This document shows, one piece after another, positions 57,236 to 64,000 of a stretch of DNA of 64,000 bases; within the stretch, counting starts at the first letter, position 1; every line of letters begins with the position of its first letter. This DNA is from Aliiroseovarius sp. PrR006 (GTDB taxonomy: Bacteria > Pseudomonadota > Alphaproteobacteria > Rhodobacterales > Rhodobacteraceae): NCBI RefSeq assembly GCF_010500215.1, contig NZ_JAAGOY010000004.1, positions 1,364,001-1,428,000 on the forward strand, written 5' to 3'. The position numbers and the translations under genes are program-made. The notes under the pieces are model-generated. The model did no database searches and was not told where the DNA came from. It saw nothing but the letters and a program-made list of their open reading frames with translations.

Positions 57236-57916
57236 TTACTTCTTCTTGCGCCACGTCCCCAGCCAGCGGGACACGCGACCCTTAGCTTCATCAGCGCGGG
57301 CATCGACGGCATCCCATGCCTCACTGGCATCCTCAATCGCGGGGTCGATCGAGCGCTGGCGGAACTGCCGCCACAGCGCGCGCACAAAGCCCAGCGCGAC
57401 GGCGAGGAACAGGAAGAAGGCGATGTTGAACCACGGAATGATTGTCACGTCCGGCCCGGCCACGGGGCGAATGCCCACAGCGTTCGGGAAAGTCGACAGC
57501 AGCTCGTTCCGCCAGCCGTAATGCGTGATCACCGCCCATTTTGGCTCTTCCGCAGTCGAGCGAAGGTCGTCGACTTCAGTCTGCAAGCTGGCGGTGTCAA
57601 ACTTGAAATAGAACGGCCAAGACCAGCCGGTATCCTCGTTACGATAGACCATGACCTCGTCCGCATCCGCGCGAATGAAGCCCAGCAGATAGGTCTTCTT
57701 TTTCACCGTCTGTACGAACTGCACATCACGGTTGATCAGGCCTGCGGATTGGTCATCCGGTTTGGACCAGAAAATCCGGGTCCAGTCGTCCAGATCCTGA
57801 CGTTCCTGATAGGTGTTCACAACACGCACCACGTCATGTTGCGGCAGCGTGTAATGCAGCACGCCAAACAGGATAAGCGCGATCAGGCTGCGGATGATGA
57901 TACGGAAACGGCGCAT
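57236..57916 (-). CDS. DUF1523 family membrane protein
   Basis: The 226-residue protein has an N-terminal TM (residues 9-25) and a second one near 163-182 (IPWFNIAFFLFLAVALGFV), with a conserved exported-side domain between: LHYTLPQHDVVRVVNTYQER, DVQFVQTV, VMVYRNEDTGWSWPFYFKF and HYGWRNELLSTFPNAV. This is the DUF1523 pattern, known to me mainly from Rhodobacterales; its function is unknown. The C-terminal tail is basic (WRKKK) and cytosolic. It is the last gene of the operon starting at the window edge, eight bases after the small membrane protein. Confidence 0.88.
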   Translation of the reverse strand: MRRFRIIIRSLIALILFGVLHYTLPQHDVVRVVNTYQERQDLDDWTRIFWSKPDDQSAGLINRDVQFVQTVKKKTYLLGFIRADADEVMVYRNEDTGWSWPFYFKFDTASLQTEVDDLRSTAEEPKWAVITHYGWRNELLSTFPNAVGIRPVAGPDVTIIPWFNIAFFLFLAVALGFVRALWRQFRQRSIDPAIEDASEAWDAVDARADEAKGRVSRWLGTWRKKK

Positions 57917-58193: not shown

Positions 58194-59555
58194 CTATTTT
58201 CCTTTCACCGCGCCCCAAGGGCCGACCATTTCAATCACTTGCTCACGCGTACGTTTGCGCGTCGTCGTCGGCACTTTCAGCGCGTCTTTGCGCCCGCCAA
58301 ACAGCTTATCACGGGCACCGGCCTTATTTGCCATATAGTCACGATGCAGGAACTCTGCCACAAACTCGCGTTTTTCGTCAGGCCATGTGGCGTAGGAGGC
58401 ATAGAAAAGCTCTTTGTGGCAGATGAACAGCTGGCGGAAGTCCATCGGTGCCAATTCGGACAGAAGACGGTTGATCAAGTCGCGATCTGGATGATCAGGC
58501 CGCGCGCGCAGGGTGTAAAAATAGGCCGGATGACGGCTGTCGATCCGCGGCCATTGCCCGCCCGCCTCGGCCCAGCGCACAAGTGCTGCCAGCCCGTGGA
58601 AGGCCTGCGGCAGATTACGTCCCATCCGCTGCGCCACGTGCCGCAAGGTGCGCGAGGACATGTCGCCCAGCTCCATCCCGGCCGAGGTCGAGGCGTCCAC
58701 CAAGATGAACTCCATCTTCTGACGCAGAATTCGCGCGCCCGCTGCACCGCGCTCACGCACCAGCGGCTCGACCAGATCGTTCTTGCGCAGGAAGCTGGCG
58801 ATGCGGTTGGGCTCGGTCGTGTCGACAAAGGGCAGACGGGGGAAGCGTTCCATCCGGTCCTTATCGCCCGAGACCACCACGCAGGGGCTTTCCACATCGC
58901 GAAAGATGTACAGCCCGCCGAAATGCGCCGTCCAGAAATTGCCCTGCTCGTATTCCTGCACGCCCAGATCGACCGGAACCTTGGTCACGTCCCCGGTTTC
59001 GCGGGCCAGATCGATCATCTCGGCAATCAGATCATCGTCATACCACGCGTTCGGCGCGGTCTGGAAATAGTCGATCTTTTCGGCCAGCACGCGGGCGTTT
59101 TTGACGTGGCTTTGGGTTGTATCGGCCTCGATCACGATCTTGCGGATGTCGAACAGCCGCGACGGGTCGGAGATATCATAGACCGAGTTCATCAGCTCGC
59201 CCGCCACCGCGTCATGGGCGGTCAGCGCAAAAAGCTTCGCCTCGTTATCCGCAATGAACTGCCGCAGGATCCCGCGCGAGGTCGAGAACATGGCGTTCAA
59301 GAGCGGCGCCTTCTTCTGGTCCACCGTCAGAATGATGAACTGCCGATTGCAGCCATTGGGGTTCAGGTAGAGCGGATCGTTCAGCTCCTCCCCCACCTCA
59401 GGCGAGAAGCCGGAAATGTCTATGTGAAACTCAGTCAGCCCGGTGCGCTTGCCCGCAAGGGAATGCAGCGCGCGGTTATACCGCTCGATCAGCGCAGGGC
59501 TGTCGACCCGGATCAGATTGCCAAACATGAGGCCGCGTTGGATGAGGCGTTTCAT
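58194..59555 (-). CDS. DUF6638-like protein
   Basis: The 453-residue soluble protein starts MKRLIQRGLMFGNLIRVDSP and includes AALTEF-type and DISGFSPEVGEELNDPLYLNP segments, then VVSGDKDRMERFPRLPFVD and, near the end, FICHKELFYASYATWPDEKREFV (each visible in the translation; the last given here as KELFYASYATWPDEKR). I recognise it as the DUF6638 type seen in roseobacters, unknown function. Its ATG overlaps the stop of the AT-rich two-TM gene upstream (ATGA). That coupling matters: the host operon is now translated through the inserted pair. Confidence 0.75.
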   Translation of the reverse strand: MKRLIQRGLMFGNLIRVDSPALIERYNRALHSLAGKRTGLTEFHIDISGFSPEVGEELNDPLYLNPNGCNRQFIILTVDQKKAPLLNAMFSTSRGILRQFIADNEAKLFALTAHDAVAGELMNSVYDISDPSRLFDIRKIVIEADTTQSHVKNARVLAEKIDYFQTAPNAWYDDDLIAEMIDLARETGDVTKVPVDLGVQEYEQGNFWTAHFGGLYIFRDVESPCVVVSGDKDRMERFPRLPFVDTTEPNRIASFLRKNDLVEPLVRERGAAGARILRQKMEFILVDASTSAGMELGDMSSRTLRHVAQRMGRNLPQAFHGLAALVRWAEAGGQWPRIDSRHPAYFYTLRARPDHPDRDLINRLLSELAPMDFRQLFICHKELFYASYATWPDEKREFVAEFLHRDYMANKAGARDKLFGGRKDALKVPTTTRKRTREQVIEMVGPWGAVKGK

Positions 59556-60094
59556 GCGTATTGGGAGTTCGTGTGCGTTTCTCTAGATGATCTACCCTTG
59601 AAACGATCCAATACAGCTTCGGCTTCCGCAATCCGAATTTCAAAAGTGAAGTCCAACCTAGAGCTATTGTGGTCTACTAGTTGAACCGCACGGGATACAA
59701 TTCGCTCCAGAATTTTGGCCGAAAACTGAATATCGTGTGAAAACTTTTTCTGCTGTGCTCGAGAAGCGATACTAATGATGGGAACAGAGGCGGCTAGTCC
59801 AGCGATAATTCCAATCATCGCGACAAATGAACTTAATTCTACTGAAGCTACGAAGTTCTCGTGCGTGTTTCTAGTTAACAGTCCCACGACCAAGGTTGCT
59901 ACCGTACCTGCAAGAGCGACTGCGATCAGGAGATTACGAAGAGCGACGCCTCGCGATTCCAGCCGTGCTTCAAGCTCCAGCGCCCGTTTTACGTCCTCTG
60001 TGTATTCTTCGAGCAACTTCAGAAGCTCCGCGCGTGCGGAAGAGTAGCTCGTTTCAATCGACGCTAGATCATTTTCATTTTCAAGCGAGTTCAA
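59552..60094 (-). CDS. Two-TM protein with coiled-coil ends, partner of the GTPase-like gene
   Basis: This 180-residue protein has a predicted coiled coil (about 18-50: LLKLLEEYTEDVKRALELEA), two TM segments (about 53-73 and 88-110) and a second helical, charged C-terminal region (FSHDIQFSAKILERIVSRAVQ). Both termini should be cytosolic. It starts at TTG 60094, which overlaps the GTPase gene's TGA (TTGA), so the two are translationally coupled; its own stop overlaps the DUF6638-like ATG. The DNA is clearly AT-richer than its operon neighbours. The build recalls membrane effectors controlled by a nucleotide switch, but I know no matching family. Confidence 0.75.
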   Translation of the reverse strand: MNSLENENDLASIETSYSSARAELLKLLEEYTEDVKRALELEARLESRGVALRNLLIAVALAGTVATLVVGLLTRNTHENFVASVELSSFVAMIGIIAGLAASVPIISIASRAQQKKFSHDIQFSAKILERIVSRAVQLVDHNSSRLDFTFEIRIAEAEAVLDRFKGRSSRETHTNSQYA

Positions 60095-60963
60095 AGCTTT
60101 TTCCCTTCAAGTAGATCATTGAACCTACGAGTTAGATTATACAAGTGCTTGATGTGTTCGTCCAAATCATATCCTGCAGAAGTCGGGGCAAGGATTTGAC
60201 CGTCCGGACCCAAAAAATTTGAAACCACATGCGAAACAGGCACAAAATGATGACTGAAAGCCAATCCGCGAGCACCTAAGTCATTCTCGATTTCTGCCAG
60301 CAACTGAGCATACTCACTACCATCCGCATCAGTATAGTGCTTGATAACCTTCTCTCTGCTGCTCCACCACAAGTCTTGTTTGCCTACGACGGTCATCATC
60401 CACACGTTTCGTTTAACTTCGGATATGCCATCCTTCAATGCATGAAGCCGTTCCAACTCTATCCCGCGTCGCTGCTCAAGATAGGCCTCAAGAAATTTTT
60501 CCTCCGACATCCCCGGCGTAAACAATTCAAACTCTTCAAAGGAACTCAGATCAAAAGAATGGTAGCCAAAGGCGACCAAGTTTATGATCGCCAGCGACTT
60601 TTTCTTCTCTAATGTATCGAAAATCCGCGGCCAAACTTCCGAAACGTACCTTGCCTGTCCAGGGGCAACCAGTAGTCTTGCAGATACTTTCCCAGGAAAT
60701 TGAACGTTTTTCTGCTCGATGTCCGACTCGTAAGTGCTGTCGAAATGAAGCGGATTGTCTGAAGTAATGACGTGAGCAAAGGTGGATTTTCCTGTCCCAC
60801 CTGCACCAAGCACTGCTATTTGAGTTTCACCGTTCAAGATGGCATCCAATGTCCTTTTCGCGTAATTCTTAATCGCCTCCGATTTCGAAACTGCCTTTGC
60901 AAGCTCTATGGCCAGTTTTGCTGGATCTAAGTTTTCCGGCGATAGCCAGTTCGCATCACTCAT
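60091..60963 (-). CDS. P-loop GTPase-like protein
   Basis: This 290-residue protein has a Walker A loop GAGGTGKST at 53-61, a switch-II-like APGQ at 100-103, and a GKQD motif at 194-197 that fits G4 ([N/T]KxD with Gly in first place), the order of motifs for a Ras-like GTPase. There is no Walker B Asp triad of AAA+ type. Residues 155-185 are helical and charged. It starts at ATG 60963, five bases after the AAA+ gene stop, and is coupled to the two-TM gene. Its low GC sets it apart from neighbours. Function unknown; a nucleotide switch driving the membrane protein is an inference. Confidence 0.78.
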   Translation of the reverse strand: MSDANWLSPENLDPAKLAIELAKAVSKSEAIKNYAKRTLDAILNGETQIAVLGAGGTGKSTFAHVITSDNPLHFDSTYESDIEQKNVQFPGKVSARLLVAPGQARYVSEVWPRIFDTLEKKKSLAIINLVAFGYHSFDLSSFEEFELFTPGMSEEKFLEAYLEQRRGIELERLHALKDGISEVKRNVWMMTVVGKQDLWWSSREKVIKHYTDADGSEYAQLLAEIENDLGARGLAFSHHFVPVSHVVSNFLGPDGQILAPTSAGYDLDEHIKHLYNLTRRFNDLLEGKKL

Positions 60964-60968
60964 GAATT

Positions 60969-62897
60969 CTACTCCTCTAAATACCTTTTCTTCGCCTCTT
61001 CCTGACGGCCAAGGTCTCGGACCATTGCCTCGATGGCGACCTCGTCGGATTTGTCGGCATAGCGGAATTCTGAATCGGCGTAGCGGTTGACCTCTTGGAT
61101 CACCATGTCGGTGGTGATGGGCACGCGCAGTTCAGAAATCATGTCTTTCTTGGTGTCATAGTCTTTGACCAAGAACAGTTCGGGGTTTTCCATCCATTCG
61201 TCGGGCAGCTCAAAGTCCATCGCGCGGACTTTCACCGCGTCGGTGATGTTCTTGATCGAGCGGCCCGTGAAGCGCTCGTCGGCTTCCTGAATGCCTTTCA
61301 GATAGGTGCCGATTTTTGCGATATCGTCCAGCTCTCCGATCTGGTCATAGACCTTGTCAAAGACGTTCATCAGGCCGGTTTCCTGCGGCTTGTTATGCGC
61401 CTCGAAGCTGCGGGCGACAGCGGATTTGATTTCCTGCGCGCCGTACAGGTCGTGGTTCCCCAGCGGGATGTCGTGGTTCTTGCCCATGAGCAGATGCAGG
61501 ATGTCGATATAGTCCTCGCGCGTTTGGGGACCATCCACCAAGAAGCGCGCGCCGGCGCGTTGGCGCAGGGCGTCGTCCACGTTCTCGGGATAGTTCGAGA
61601 ACATGCCGAAGGTGCAGTTCCCGCGCACTACGGTGTTAGCGCCCGCGAAGCTTTCCATCAGAACCGCCGTGACCTCTTGCTGACCGGCCGAGGATTGACG
61701 ATCCCCGCGTTTGCCCGCGATCTGGTCGATGTCATCCACGGTGCCAAAGCCGATCACATTGGGGTCGAGCACGTTGTTGATAAATGCCTTGGCGTTCTGG
61801 CCCGACTTGCCCTGATAGCTGTCGATATTGTCGATGCCGAAATTCTGGTACCGGAACGGATAGCCCGCCACCGCGCAGTAGTCATTGATCAGCCCGGCCA
61901 TCATCTGGATCAGCGTGGTTTTACCCGTGCCCGGCTTGCCGTCGCCCATGAAGGTGAAGATGAAGCCACCCAGTTCCGCGAAGGGGTTCAGTTTGCGGTC
62001 GAAGTCATAGGCCATCAGCATCTTGGCCAGCTTCATCGCTTGGTATTTCGCGATGTGGTTGCCCACGACTTGATGCGGTTTCTTGAAGGTCATCGTCAGT
62101 TTCGAGCCGCGATGGGCGCGGGGCGGCGTGAAGCCCGAGATGGTCAGATCATCTGCCTCGACCCGGTAGTTGGCCGAGGTGAACGGACCAAGGTGGCTGG
62201 CTGTTTGGGCACGAAGCGCGACCTTCTCCATCAGCTGTTCGACATAGGCCAGCACCGTGGGCACCAGCTTGTCTTCGGAGGTCACGAAGGTGGCAAGCTC
62301 CTGATCCAGCTCCCACAATGCGCCATTCAGGGCGAGTGGGGCGTTGTCGGTCAGGATCTCTTCGACCGCGCCGACCTCAATCGGGGTTCCGCTGGCGTGG
62401 TCAGCCAGAAGGTACGAGGTCGCGTTGCCGAAGACGTAAAGGACGATCAGCGCCTCGGCGGTCAGAAGTTCCGAGAACGCAGTGGATTTGTCTGCGCCTA
62501 GACGGCCCTCGAGGTTCGCGCGACGCAGGGCGGCGAGTTCGGTTTGCTCGGCAAACCCCTCACCCACCGCCAAAGCAATCGCAATGGCGCGGCGCAGCGT
62601 GTGCAGGACGGTTGCCTGCATGGGGGACACCAGCGGATCATCCCCGTCCGAGCCTTCGATCCGTTCGACCAGATGCACGCCTTCGGGCCGCGCGGTGGAC
62701 CGCGTGACCAGACCCGGCGTGGTCGACCGGAACCGTCGCGCGCGTCCAATGCCGGGGCTGCGTTCCGCCTTGGGCGCTTCCTTCGGCTTGGCAATCCGGG
62801 GCGTGTGATCGAACCCGTCCAGATGCCCCGCCGCAGCCGCATAATGCGCGCGGATTTCCTCTTCGCGAAGCTCCATCAGATCAGCGGGGTGAGACAT
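60969..62897 (-). CDS. AAA+ ATPase of unknown pathway
   Basis: The 642-residue protein has a long N-terminal region (1-300, with EEEIRAHYAAAAGHLDGFD and a proline/basic linker, then a helical domain) and a C-terminal AAA+ module: Walker A GDGKPGTGKTTL (about 318), Walker B GFGTVDDIDQ (about 379), a sensor region GMFSNYPENVDDALRQRAGAR and helical lid. It resembles roseobacter AAA ATPases in operons with DUF6638 and DUF1523 genes; the pathway is unknown. It may remodel a protein complex, perhaps one involving the product of the next gene. It follows the edge gene by 17 bases. Confidence 0.85.
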   Translation of the reverse strand: MSHPADLMELREEEIRAHYAAAAGHLDGFDHTPRIAKPKEAPKAERSPGIGRARRFRSTTPGLVTRSTARPEGVHLVERIEGSDGDDPLVSPMQATVLHTLRRAIAIALAVGEGFAEQTELAALRRANLEGRLGADKSTAFSELLTAEALIVLYVFGNATSYLLADHASGTPIEVGAVEEILTDNAPLALNGALWELDQELATFVTSEDKLVPTVLAYVEQLMEKVALRAQTASHLGPFTSANYRVEADDLTISGFTPPRAHRGSKLTMTFKKPHQVVGNHIAKYQAMKLAKMLMAYDFDRKLNPFAELGGFIFTFMGDGKPGTGKTTLIQMMAGLINDYCAVAGYPFRYQNFGIDNIDSYQGKSGQNAKAFINNVLDPNVIGFGTVDDIDQIAGKRGDRQSSAGQQEVTAVLMESFAGANTVVRGNCTFGMFSNYPENVDDALRQRAGARFLVDGPQTREDYIDILHLLMGKNHDIPLGNHDLYGAQEIKSAVARSFEAHNKPQETGLMNVFDKVYDQIGELDDIAKIGTYLKGIQEADERFTGRSIKNITDAVKVRAMDFELPDEWMENPELFLVKDYDTKKDMISELRVPITTDMVIQEVNRYADSEFRYADKSDEVAIEAMVRDLGRQEEAKKRYLEE

Positions 62898-62914: not shown

Positions 62915-64000
62915 TCAACGATATGACAGCACCCGGCCACCCGGGCTGACAACAAATTTGCGTACGTCGTGGAACCCGGCGGGGTTCTTTTCGGCCAGCA
63001 CCTGAAACGGGCGCTCGGGCATGATGATGGCGCGTTCCATGCTGGTCGCGCCGATGGTGGACCCCGCCCCGGCAAACGGATCGAGCGCGAAGACCTGACG
63101 TTCCACCTTCCCGAACCAGCCGGATTTCTCCTCCTTCACCGAGGCGCTTTTCAGCTCTTCCACGGTCCATGCCAACGCCCAGTCTTCGCCGGGCGGGCTT
63201 TTGGCTTGCTCCAAAACCTCACGCAGAGGGCCGGTTTGACGGGTAAACGTATGGCTGTACATCGGGCCGACATGGAAGCGGCGCAGACGTTTCGGGTGCA
63301 GGTCGTCGAAATCCTTATCGAACCCGGTGGCGATGGTCACAAGTTGCAACCCAGCCATCGACTGCGCCATCAAATGCGACTGGACCTGAGGCCAACGGCG
63401 TTCGTCTTTGGGCAGCGCGGTGCGGCCGGTGTCTTCCAGTTCCATCAGATAGATGGTGGGCAGGTTGACCTCGCTGTCATAGACCGCCCAATGGGCCAGA
63501 TAGACGCGGCGGGGATCGCGGCCCTCGCCCTTGTTGTGGCGCCAGATCACGTCGGGATGCATCTGGGGCCAGAAAAGGTCGCCCTTTTGCAGCTCTTCAT
63601 AATAGAGCCGCTGTGACAGGGCGTATTGCAGCTTCTTCGGCACGCTCAGATCACCGACAATCTGGCTGACCATCTGGCTTTTCAGATCGCGGGCGGAGGC
63701 CATGCCCTTCAGATGCGTATCCGCCTGCGCGGCGTCGGACGCCATTTGCAGAAGTTCCGCATGGATCGGAAACCCGCTGTCGCGCCTATCAAAGGTCAGC
63801 GTCGCCCCGCCCAGCCCATAGGCCGTTTCGGACATGTGATACTTGTTGGCCAGCGCCTTGAAGCTAAGGCCCAGCTTGATCAGGTAGCGGGCGAGCACGT
63901 CGACCTCGTCGCGGCTCAACTTGCCCTCGACCTCCATCTGCCCGGCCACACGGGCCAGATGCGCGGTTATCTTCTCGAATTTCGAGAAGTAGCGCCGCGT
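62915..64000 (-). CDS. Unrecognised protein, first visible gene of the AAA+ operon (N-terminus beyond window)
   Basis: The reading frame is open from 64000 to the stop at 62915 (361 residues visible), and upstream codons (RRYFSKFEKITAHLARVAGQ) are protein-like, so the real start lies outside the window; GTG 63949 should not be taken as the start. Visible parts: GLGGATLTFD, YEELQKGDLFWPQMHPD, a segment with TIYLMELEDTG, and an end with MPERPFQVLAEKNPAG. No catalytic motif or TM is seen. It is 17 bases ahead of the AAA+ gene and should be its functional partner or substrate. Confidence 0.75.
   Translation of the reverse strand, partial: TRRYFSKFEKITAHLARVAGQMEVEGKLSRDEVDVLARYLIKLGLSFKALANKYHMSETAYGLGGATLTFDRRDSGFPIHAELLQMASDAAQADTHLKGMASARDLKSQMVSQIVGDLSVPKKLQYALSQRLYYEELQKGDLFWPQMHPDVIWRHNKGEGRDPRRVYLAHWAVYDSEVNLPTIYLMELEDTGRTALPKDERRWPQVQSHLMAQSMAGLQLVTIATGFDKDFDDLHPKRLRRFHVGPMYSHTFTRQTGPLREVLEQAKSPPGEDWALAWTVEELKSASVKEEKSGWFGKVERQVFALDPFAGAGSTIGATSMERAIIMPERPFQVLAEKNPAGFHDVRKFVVSPGGRVLSYR

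Follow-up and report, generated by a model that had tools for sequence, protein, structure and literature searches.

Integron gene cassettes are single open reading frames (ORFs) that are swapped at a fixed place and expressed by the host. Hotspots between core genes, whose contents are exchanged by double recombination, have been described [Oliveira 2017, PMC5635113], and the core defense hotspots of Pseudomonas aeruginosa carry several systems and have a median size of 6 kb [Johnson et al. 2023, PMC10250203]. Here, we discuss a related locus in a 64,000-nucleotide stretch of the genome of Aliiroseovarius sp. PrR006 (Rhodobacteraceae; contig NZ_JAAGOY010000004.1, forward-strand positions 1,364,001 to 1,428,000; hereafter the window). 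A sequence-only reading of the window had drawn attention to two adjacent low-GC genes, one for a GTPase-like protein and one for a protein with two transmembrane (TM) segments, lying between the genes for an AAA+ ATPase and a DUF6638-like protein. Both ORFs are where that reading placed them, their GC content is 0.462 and 0.477 compared with 0.603 for the flanking genes, and the neighbor is indeed a DUF6638 protein (PF20343, E 1.3e-207); the AT-rich pair in this position is thus confirmed. Judged by sequence, the site matters more than the pair: the operon is conserved, but its AAA+/DUF6638 junction forms a hypervariable slot for cargo genes. In this family of mostly marine bacteria, nearly all genomes examined differ in the small gene or gene pair found at this spot, and some of these genes resemble antivirus genes. 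We put a probability of about 0.8 on the reading that cargo is exchanged chiefly through homologous recombination in the flanking genes and that the pair is the cargo of this strain.

The slot resembles integron cassettes in that single ORFs are exchanged at a fixed place under host expression. It differs in that neither an integrase nor a cassette array is found, that its borders are the flanking genes, and that a GC-rich palindrome seen in related slots (see below) is absent from this one; the Pfam and PHROG matches of 108 cargo proteins name no integron integrase, and the flanks are operon genes. With the hotspots of Oliveira [PMC5635113] it has in common that the content of a single place turns over quickly, that the flanks are conserved and recombine more, and that no integrase is seen. 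Those hotspots, however, are spots between core genes generally, whereas the slot takes one to three genes inside one compact operon, is kept across genera, and has cargo whose start and stop codons are often flush with its borders. The core defense hotspots of P. aeruginosa [PMC10250203] likewise have fixed core-gene borders and diverse cargo, mostly of unknown function; the slot differs in its median gap of 760 bp and in cargo that appears to depend on the operon for expression. A slot in a compact operon that accepts one to three ORFs at a time in many genera was not found described among the open-licence papers listed in our searches, which is weak evidence, and the same literature yielded no papers on DUF6638 or putAbiC. 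The comparison suggests that the kind, a core-gene recombination hotspot, is known and that the operon-internal slot kept over genera is the new aspect.

Within Aliiroseovarius, conserved genes stand on both sides of the slot in all 21 genomes, with DUF6638 on one side and AAA+ across from it. The junction is occupied in every one of them, over 386-1416 bp from the last aligned AAA+ codon to the DUF6638 start. The 27 cargo proteins of at least 65 amino acids (aa) fall into 23 clusters (50% identity over 70% of the length), and 4 of the 210 genome pairs share a cluster. A fifth pair, G007 and G020 (genomes are cited by G numbers and loci by L numbers), shares a cargo with 91% DNA identity over 338 bp that was missed by the coverage limit of the clustering. 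The cargo comprises eight two-TM and coiled-coil proteins with an NE(I/V)GDTLAG motif and C-terminal parts that vary, a protein in G001 and G019 that matches GHKL weakly, a Hypoth_Ymh/PD-Lambda-3_B protein in G012, what we take to be a HEPN-like protein in G009, small proteins with one to four TM segments, others, and the present pair, which was not found in the 20 other genomes. The earlier suggestion of a horizontally acquired switch and membrane module therefore stands as to the foreign composition of the pair and the failure to find it in these 20 genomes, but not as a one-off insertion, since 21/21 genomes of the genus hold cargo, which also differs across the family.

Two further observations concern the NEIGDTLAG cargo of the genus. 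The proteins (L034:10398-11243, L040:4699-5553, L029:5986-6864) look mosaic: those of G008 and G014 have a common N-terminal part and then differ, and a C-terminal part is common to G003 and G008. A 106-nt GC-rich imperfect palindrome (L036:7771-7886; slots of G003, G006, G011, and G013; minimum free energy -63.8 kcal/mol, z -3.9) lies directly 3' of the AAA+ stop and ahead of NEIGDTLAG cargo in five genomes, at 97-100% identity. Matches of any grade occur in 18/21 genomes, many of them outside the slot. We did not adopt the palindrome as the mark of a mobile element, as close copies precede one cargo class only, weaker copies lie elsewhere, and it is absent from the present slot.

The family was sampled with one genome per genus (248 genomes), 112 of which have a PF20343 match. 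Of the 111 other than our own, 79 were fetched and 74 measured; in three of the remaining five (G323, G185, and G210) the sequence stops at a contig end, and two (G173 and G277) have no AAA+ match upstream. Together with the 21 genomes of the genus, this gives 95 loci, of which 4 have no gap, 4 have 70-126 bp lacking a called gene, and 87 contain called ORFs. A second sample, consisting of the best 80 of at least 529 named contigs, has the same pattern. After deduplication the merged set holds 156 loci, mostly from Rhodobacteraceae: 7 slots are closed, with the flanking genes abutting or overlapping (in four genomes of the family and at three Halomonas or Billgrantia loci), 4 have a short gap without a call, and 145 are filled, with one gene in 92, two in 41, and three in 12. 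The calls were made mechanically as the longest sense ORFs, and small or GC-rich ones may be wrong. The comparison with 20 or more genomes that had been proposed at the outset did not place the pair in most relatives, and neither of its proteins has a housekeeping match over a cut-off.

Some of these loci are unusual. In Halomonas and Billgrantia, which are gammaproteobacteria (L215, L228, and L229), the slot is closed by a four-base overlap, and the AAA+ protein is 74-75% identical to that of the window; together, this suggests transfer of the whole operon between classes. The largest slot, in Lentibacter (L220, 2382 bp), has a 412-aa ORF on the opposite strand together with a short DUF6638 5' piece. 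In the G307 slot (L140), the AAA+ frame continues into a small ORF, that is, the cargo is fused in frame, and the same small ORF is separate slot cargo in G240 and G252.

The variability is concentrated at one junction of the operon. A gap of at least 200 bp is found at the slot in 138/156 loci, compared with 15/154 between AAA+ and the gene upstream of it (UP), 0/154 between DUF6638 and the following gene for a small membrane protein (sTM), and 0/153 between sTM and the DUF1523 gene. Cargo is also closely fitted to its borders. Of the 145 filled slots, 68 have a first cargo gene that overlaps the end of AAA+, stop codon included, by four bases, 92 have a last cargo gene that overlaps the start of DUF6638 by four bases, and 41 have both overlaps; under looser limits, both borders are flush in 97. 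In the window the junctions read TAG-AATTC-ATG (AAA+/GTPase-like), TTGA (GTPase-like/two-TM), and ATGA (two-TM/DUF6638), just as the sequence-only reading had them, and the pair lies in frame with the conserved operon, in a place from which it could use the host operon for expression. The GAGGAG at the AAA+ 3' end has the position of a Shine-Dalgarno sequence relative to the first cargo gene; in most other genomes of the genus, this border reads ...TTGGAGGGGAAG and then the stop. The 3' end of AAA+ would thus double as a ribosome-binding site from which the cargo is translated. At the other border, translation would be coupled by the stop of the last cargo gene, which often overlaps the DUF6638 start. 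If the borders have these roles, any fitting ORF could be expressed without breaking the operon.

Evidence for how the cargo is replaced comes from the flanking genes. Among the 16 closest of the 21 Aliiroseovarius genomes, identity at fourfold sites is 0.80 in the 100 slot-side codons of AAA+ and 0.56 in the farthest 150; the corresponding values for DUF6638 are 0.77 near the slot and 0.62 far from it. One-sided block permutation (P given as AAA+/DUF6638) supports the gradient in Aliiroseovarius (16 genomes; P 0.0005/0.0035), Marivita (4; P 0.001/0.001), and Shimia (7, excluding L223, a near twin of L195; P 0.032/0.0025), and by eye no comparable trend is seen in UP and ALDH. Among 20 genomes of the genus, near-slot DNA is more alike than far DNA in 189/190 pairs for AAA+ and in 161/190 for DUF6638, and the near-slot and far trees reject each other (approximately unbiased test, 0.0004 and 4e-10). 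The trees of the two parts of AAA+ differ by a Robinson-Foulds (RF) distance of 22 and a log-likelihood difference (delta lnL) of 76-135, a stronger conflict than that between the halves of ALDH, which served as the control gene. Collectively, the gradient in three of four genera and the comparison of AAA+ with this one control gene suggest that the flanking genes recombine more than genes elsewhere.

Possible traces of individual exchanges are also seen. Slot DNA of at least 200 bp is common to 58 locus pairs, and in 10 of these the slot has a higher identity than either flank, for example in G001/G019 (94.8% over 1021 bp, flanks 82-84%), G007/G020 (91%, flanks 80-85%), and, across genera, G001/G177 (76%, flanks 71% and 58%). 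In addition, 4 of the 149 slots searched contain stretches of the DUF6638 5' end (G007, 73 nt; G157, 72 nt; L220, 32 nt; G149, 31 nt), pieces that can be read as failed or stacked exchanges. Other, weak matches of this search were rejected as scars: those in G252 and G240, as the G307 query was AAA+ fused in frame to the same small ORF, and those in G020, G152, and a second one in G007, which are short or of low identity. The pieces could also be the duplicated half of an att-like site at the DUF6638 5' end, into which a recombinase inserts the cargo as site-specific mobile cassettes. The G007 and G157 scars stop at nearly the same point, 72-73 nt into DUF6638, and the first ~24 DUF6638 codons are well conserved among the aligned sequences listed. 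However, a site-specific event does not give raised identity over hundreds of codons on both sides, 145 of the 149 slots have no scar, and neither an integrase nor a transposase appears by name in the Pfam and PHROG matches of the 108 cargo proteins, most PHROG matches being without function. We regard such an insertion mechanism as highly improbable.

Turnover, the identity gradient in the flanks, and the DUF6638 pieces in slots together point instead to cargo replacement by homologous recombination. DNA from a relative would pair with the conserved 3' part of AAA+ and the conserved 5' part of DUF6638, and whatever sits between the two would be swapped. The incoming DNA may be brought by gene transfer agents or by transformation, a suggestion we hold at a little under even odds. 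The gene transfer agent marker domain PF13547 is present in 20/21 genomes of the genus. RcGTA particles carry ~4-4.5 kb [PMC11841831], which is enough for the observed cargo sizes and some of both flanks. If the recombination reading is correct, gene transfer agents are a plausible vehicle for slot exchange, and the slot, with its defined borders, short cargo, and known flanks, offers a clean natural setting for measurements of how homologous recombination replaces genes.

The nature of the cargo bears on what drives its turnover. There are 113 calls of at least 65 aa, of which 108 were scanned against Pfam at E 0.001 (G008_1, G014_1, G149_1, G149_3, and G307_1 were excluded; the scan covered calls of 65 aa and above). 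At most 21 of the 108 have a match, the member counts summing to 21, and the families include Mrr_cat, DUF559, putAbiC, and AbiJ_NTD4 (2 each), Hypoth_Ymh, DUF2188, DUF3825, a thioredoxin-like domain, and HATPase_c_2 (1 each). Over all searches, the cargo also includes HNH and PD-Lambda-3_B families. Most cargo has no family match, and 19 small proteins with three TM segments (3TM) form one cluster. In the PADLOC scan of the cargo, 20 families have members. Matches within a set of 20 cargo proteins picked by hand as likely candidates are to type IV restriction (3), AbiP (2, weak), PD-Lambda-3_B (1, E 5.7e-77), and CARF-HEPN (1, weak); among 35 other window proteins taken as a control, one matches, to a desaturase model. 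This control is small and comes from one window, with 3 of the 37 called ORFs excluded and UP added.

The scarcity of Pfam matches, the many small membrane proteins, and the possibility that some small GC-rich calls are no genes would also fit a neutral landing place, a junction that tolerates insertions and collects random short foreign DNA without a common role. Against this, the two neighboring junctions downstream never reach 200 bp, the called ORFs are flush with both borders in two-thirds of the filled slots (97/145), and the cargo includes nuclease, HEPN, and Abi families where the control proteins gave a single desaturase; we consider a neutral origin of the pattern very unlikely. For a slot refilled by recombination, we lean towards selection by phages or rivals as the force behind the turnover. 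A further step, about which we are doubtful, would be that Rhodobacteraceae keep a dedicated expression slot, for which the operon gives the ribosome-binding site and overlaps and gene transfer agents the short homologous fragments, so that a library spread over the whole population, with many dozens of cargo types that are for the most part unknown defense genes, passes through it. If the reading of the slot is true, one polymerase chain reaction or database query across the junction would list many candidate antiphage genes, most of them without a family, in a common marine group.

A more elaborate possibility is that the operon itself (a coiled-coil protein, UP, AAA+, DUF6638, and two membrane proteins) is a defense or stress core for which the slot gene serves as an interchangeable effector. 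Cargo takes the same place and strand in the operon and is often coupled on one or both sides, and the AAA+ protein has weak matches to the TRIP13 and IetA models (E 5e-4 and 0.004). These matches, however, are far weaker than the AAA match, the cargo types are mechanistically unlike one another (Mrr nuclease, DUF559, AbiJ, GHKL-like, 3TM, thioredoxin-like), and the slot is closed in the seven loci mentioned above. A machine of this kind is rather improbable; if cargo were in addition a target of the AAA+ or DUF6638 protein, the locus would amount to a modular immune system whose effector can be swapped.

The GTPase-like and membrane protein pair is one testable member of the slot cargo. The GC content of its stretch, 0.468, is the lowest but one step among 626 overlapping 1400-nt windows of the 64 kb, the minimum of 0.466 lying inside it, and GC3 of its genes is 0.48 and 0.46 compared with 0.77-0.78 for AAA+ and DUF6638. 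The motifs listed in the sequence-only reading are present in the first protein (P-loop GAGGTGKST, APGQ in place of D-x-PG-Q, and GKQD in place of N/TKxD), and they align with the PGQ/PGN and KxD motifs of five relatives. The P-loop, GxxxxGK[ST], reads GAGGTGKS and is aligned in all six members. At the G3 position (DxxG) the window protein has VAPGQ and the relatives DTPGQ, DTPGN, VVPGQ, or VIPGQ, the Asp being missing in the window protein, G210, and G648. At the G4 position ([NT]KxD), where the window protein has GKQD, the relatives have TKAD, SKAD, NKYD, TKSD, and NKSD. Invariant in the six are the G, G, and K of the P-loop, the PG of switch II, and the K, D, and L of KxDL. Against MMR_HSR1 (PF01926), the window protein has no match over the Pfam cut-off of 21.9; four of the five relatives pass it (37.1, 28.4, 28.9, and 27.4), and the fifth scores 17.7. 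The earlier statement that no known family fits thus has to be qualified for the first protein, which, judged by these relatives, is most likely a divergent GTPase of the TRAFAC/MMR_HSR1 type. It differs from this type in lacking the G3 Asp and in having a membrane-protein gene next to it in all six members. A PDB search with a three-sequence profile has Ras-type GTPases at the top of its list (E 3e-4), and MglA-type GTPases likewise are without the G3 Asp.

Relatives of the GTPase-like protein are few. One search matched 3/148 genomes, namely its own, G047 (34% identity), and G111, the last rejected as a false match to what is presumably an ABC-F-like protein; a match in G327 we take to be an Era-like GTPase. 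When short matches covering the P-loop only are left out (class, phylum, and family searches), full-length members at E 1e-5 are found in 3/394 family and 2/398 phylum genomes, the genome of the window counting in both, and one further full-length relative lies on the Rhodococcus plasmid pDK4. None was found in phages, viral_contigs, or genome_contigs, where the search covered close relatives only. The second protein has the two hydrophobic segments that had been noted, set between predicted long helices in a low-confidence model, and has no match on plasmids. A membrane-protein gene follows the GTPase gene directly in 6/6 full-length members, the window included. In the five other contexts (G047, pDK4, G459, where two membrane genes follow, G210, and G648), the product has ~150-182 aa and a similar size and layout, with 9-19% identity to the two-TM protein of the window. 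With so little sequence in common, the membrane partners are at most possible homologues; the recurrence nevertheless marks the pair, by its gene order, as a two-gene module with relatives elsewhere in other genomes.

RexAB-type and Eleos-type defense pairs combine a sensor or GTPase with a membrane-acting protein. The present pair shares this logic of a sensor or NTPase and a membrane protein, but it has no PADLOC match, and the likeness is one of logic. Given the other cargo in the slot, an antiphage role for the pair is plausible. Tentatively, and with the odds somewhat against it, we propose that the pair is a small conflict system. Its GTPase-like protein would be a nucleotide-bound sensor in control of the two-TM coiled-coil protein, which would disturb the inner membrane once triggered. 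Oligomerization of the two-TM protein would be gated by the nucleotide state of the sensor, and a trigger would compromise the membrane so that the infected cell stops. The pair might instead be a housekeeping signaling or transport module of this strain, which we consider unlikely. Relatives adjoin ordinary-looking genes, presumably a 2-oxoacid dehydrogenase E2 gene in G047 and a HemW-like gene in G648; such a function sits poorly with the very patchy distribution of the family in the genome samples and its occurrence on a Rhodococcus plasmid.

Several observations weigh against the reading of the junction as a recombining slot or against the role proposed for its present cargo. A DUF6638 match is missing in 136 of the 248 family genomes. 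Nor is the arrangement universal, because in G173 and G277, where 3.2 and 5.9 kb are available upstream of DUF6638, no AAA+ match lies in that sequence. The gradient is not significant in Leisingera (6 loci; P 0.15/0.27), and high fourfold-site identity at the DUF6638 5' end could come partly from constraint on the translation start. The halves of ALDH (19 genomes) also reject each other's tree (RF 16, delta lnL 46-74), so that these genomes recombine generally, and the slot stands out only in that recombination is concentrated next to it. For 48 of the 58 locus pairs with shared slot DNA, identity in the slot does not exceed that of both flanks. As to function, 7 of the 20 hand-picked candidates match PADLOC, some of them weakly, and with Pfam matches for at most 21 of 108 proteins, "defense" rests on a minority of the cargo. 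The pair is not seen in any other slot examined, neither of its proteins matches any PADLOC family at E 1, and the single-sequence AlphaFold2 models are poor (predicted local distance difference test, 36.1 and 46.5). Moreover, GTP use is uncertain, because the usual G3 Asp is missing and G4 is GKQD.

Table 1. Slot, cargo, and operon genes in the window (positions are those of the 64,000-nucleotide stretch).
Feature	Position	Strand	Basis or remark
UP, operon gene upstream of AAA+	62915..63949	-	No Pfam family; ORF runs past the window, 396 aa in L156
AAA+ ATPase, left flank gene, 642 aa	60969..62897	-	Pfam; fourfold-site identity in the genus climbs towards the 3' end
Left slot border, AAA+ 3' end, GAGGAG-TAG-AATTC	60964..60977	-	Sequence; putative ribosome-binding role
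Cargo gene 1, GTPase-like, 290 aa, ATG start	60091..60963	-	ORF list, motifs, relatives
Cargo gene 2, two-TM protein, 180 aa, TTG start overlapping gene 1 stop (TTGA)	59552..60094	-	
Right slot border, ATGA, cargo stop overlapping DUF6638 start	59552..59555	-	
DUF6638 (PF20343), right flank gene, 453 aa	58194..59555	-	Fourfold-site identity in the genus peaks in the first ~200 codons
sTM, small membrane protein, 97 aa	57925..58218	-	Conserved operon
DUF1523 protein (PF07509)	57236..57916	-	Pfam; followed by the longest terminator-like hairpin of the scan, 57215-57183

The operon thus runs on the minus strand in the order UP, AAA+, GTPase-like, two-TM, DUF6638, sTM, DUF1523 (Table 1), and the AAA+ assignment rests on PF00004 (E 3.3e-11). 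A scan for promoters and terminators gave about as many sites as shuffled sequence (4 vs 2.8 and 8 vs 6.9), the longest hairpin on the operon strand being the one 3' of DUF1523. A promoter-like site on the minus strand (60164-60136, 10/12) precedes the two-TM gene, which could therefore have a promoter of its own. The UP-AAA junction is a second, rarer variable place, reaching at least 300 bp in 12/154 loci (e.g., L250, L219, L192, and L133), and several of these gaps contain a small lipoprotein-like ORF. Upstream of UP, beyond the window, lies a same-strand gene for a coiled-coil-looking protein of 358 aa without a Pfam family (L156:8825-9901), possibly the first gene of the operon.

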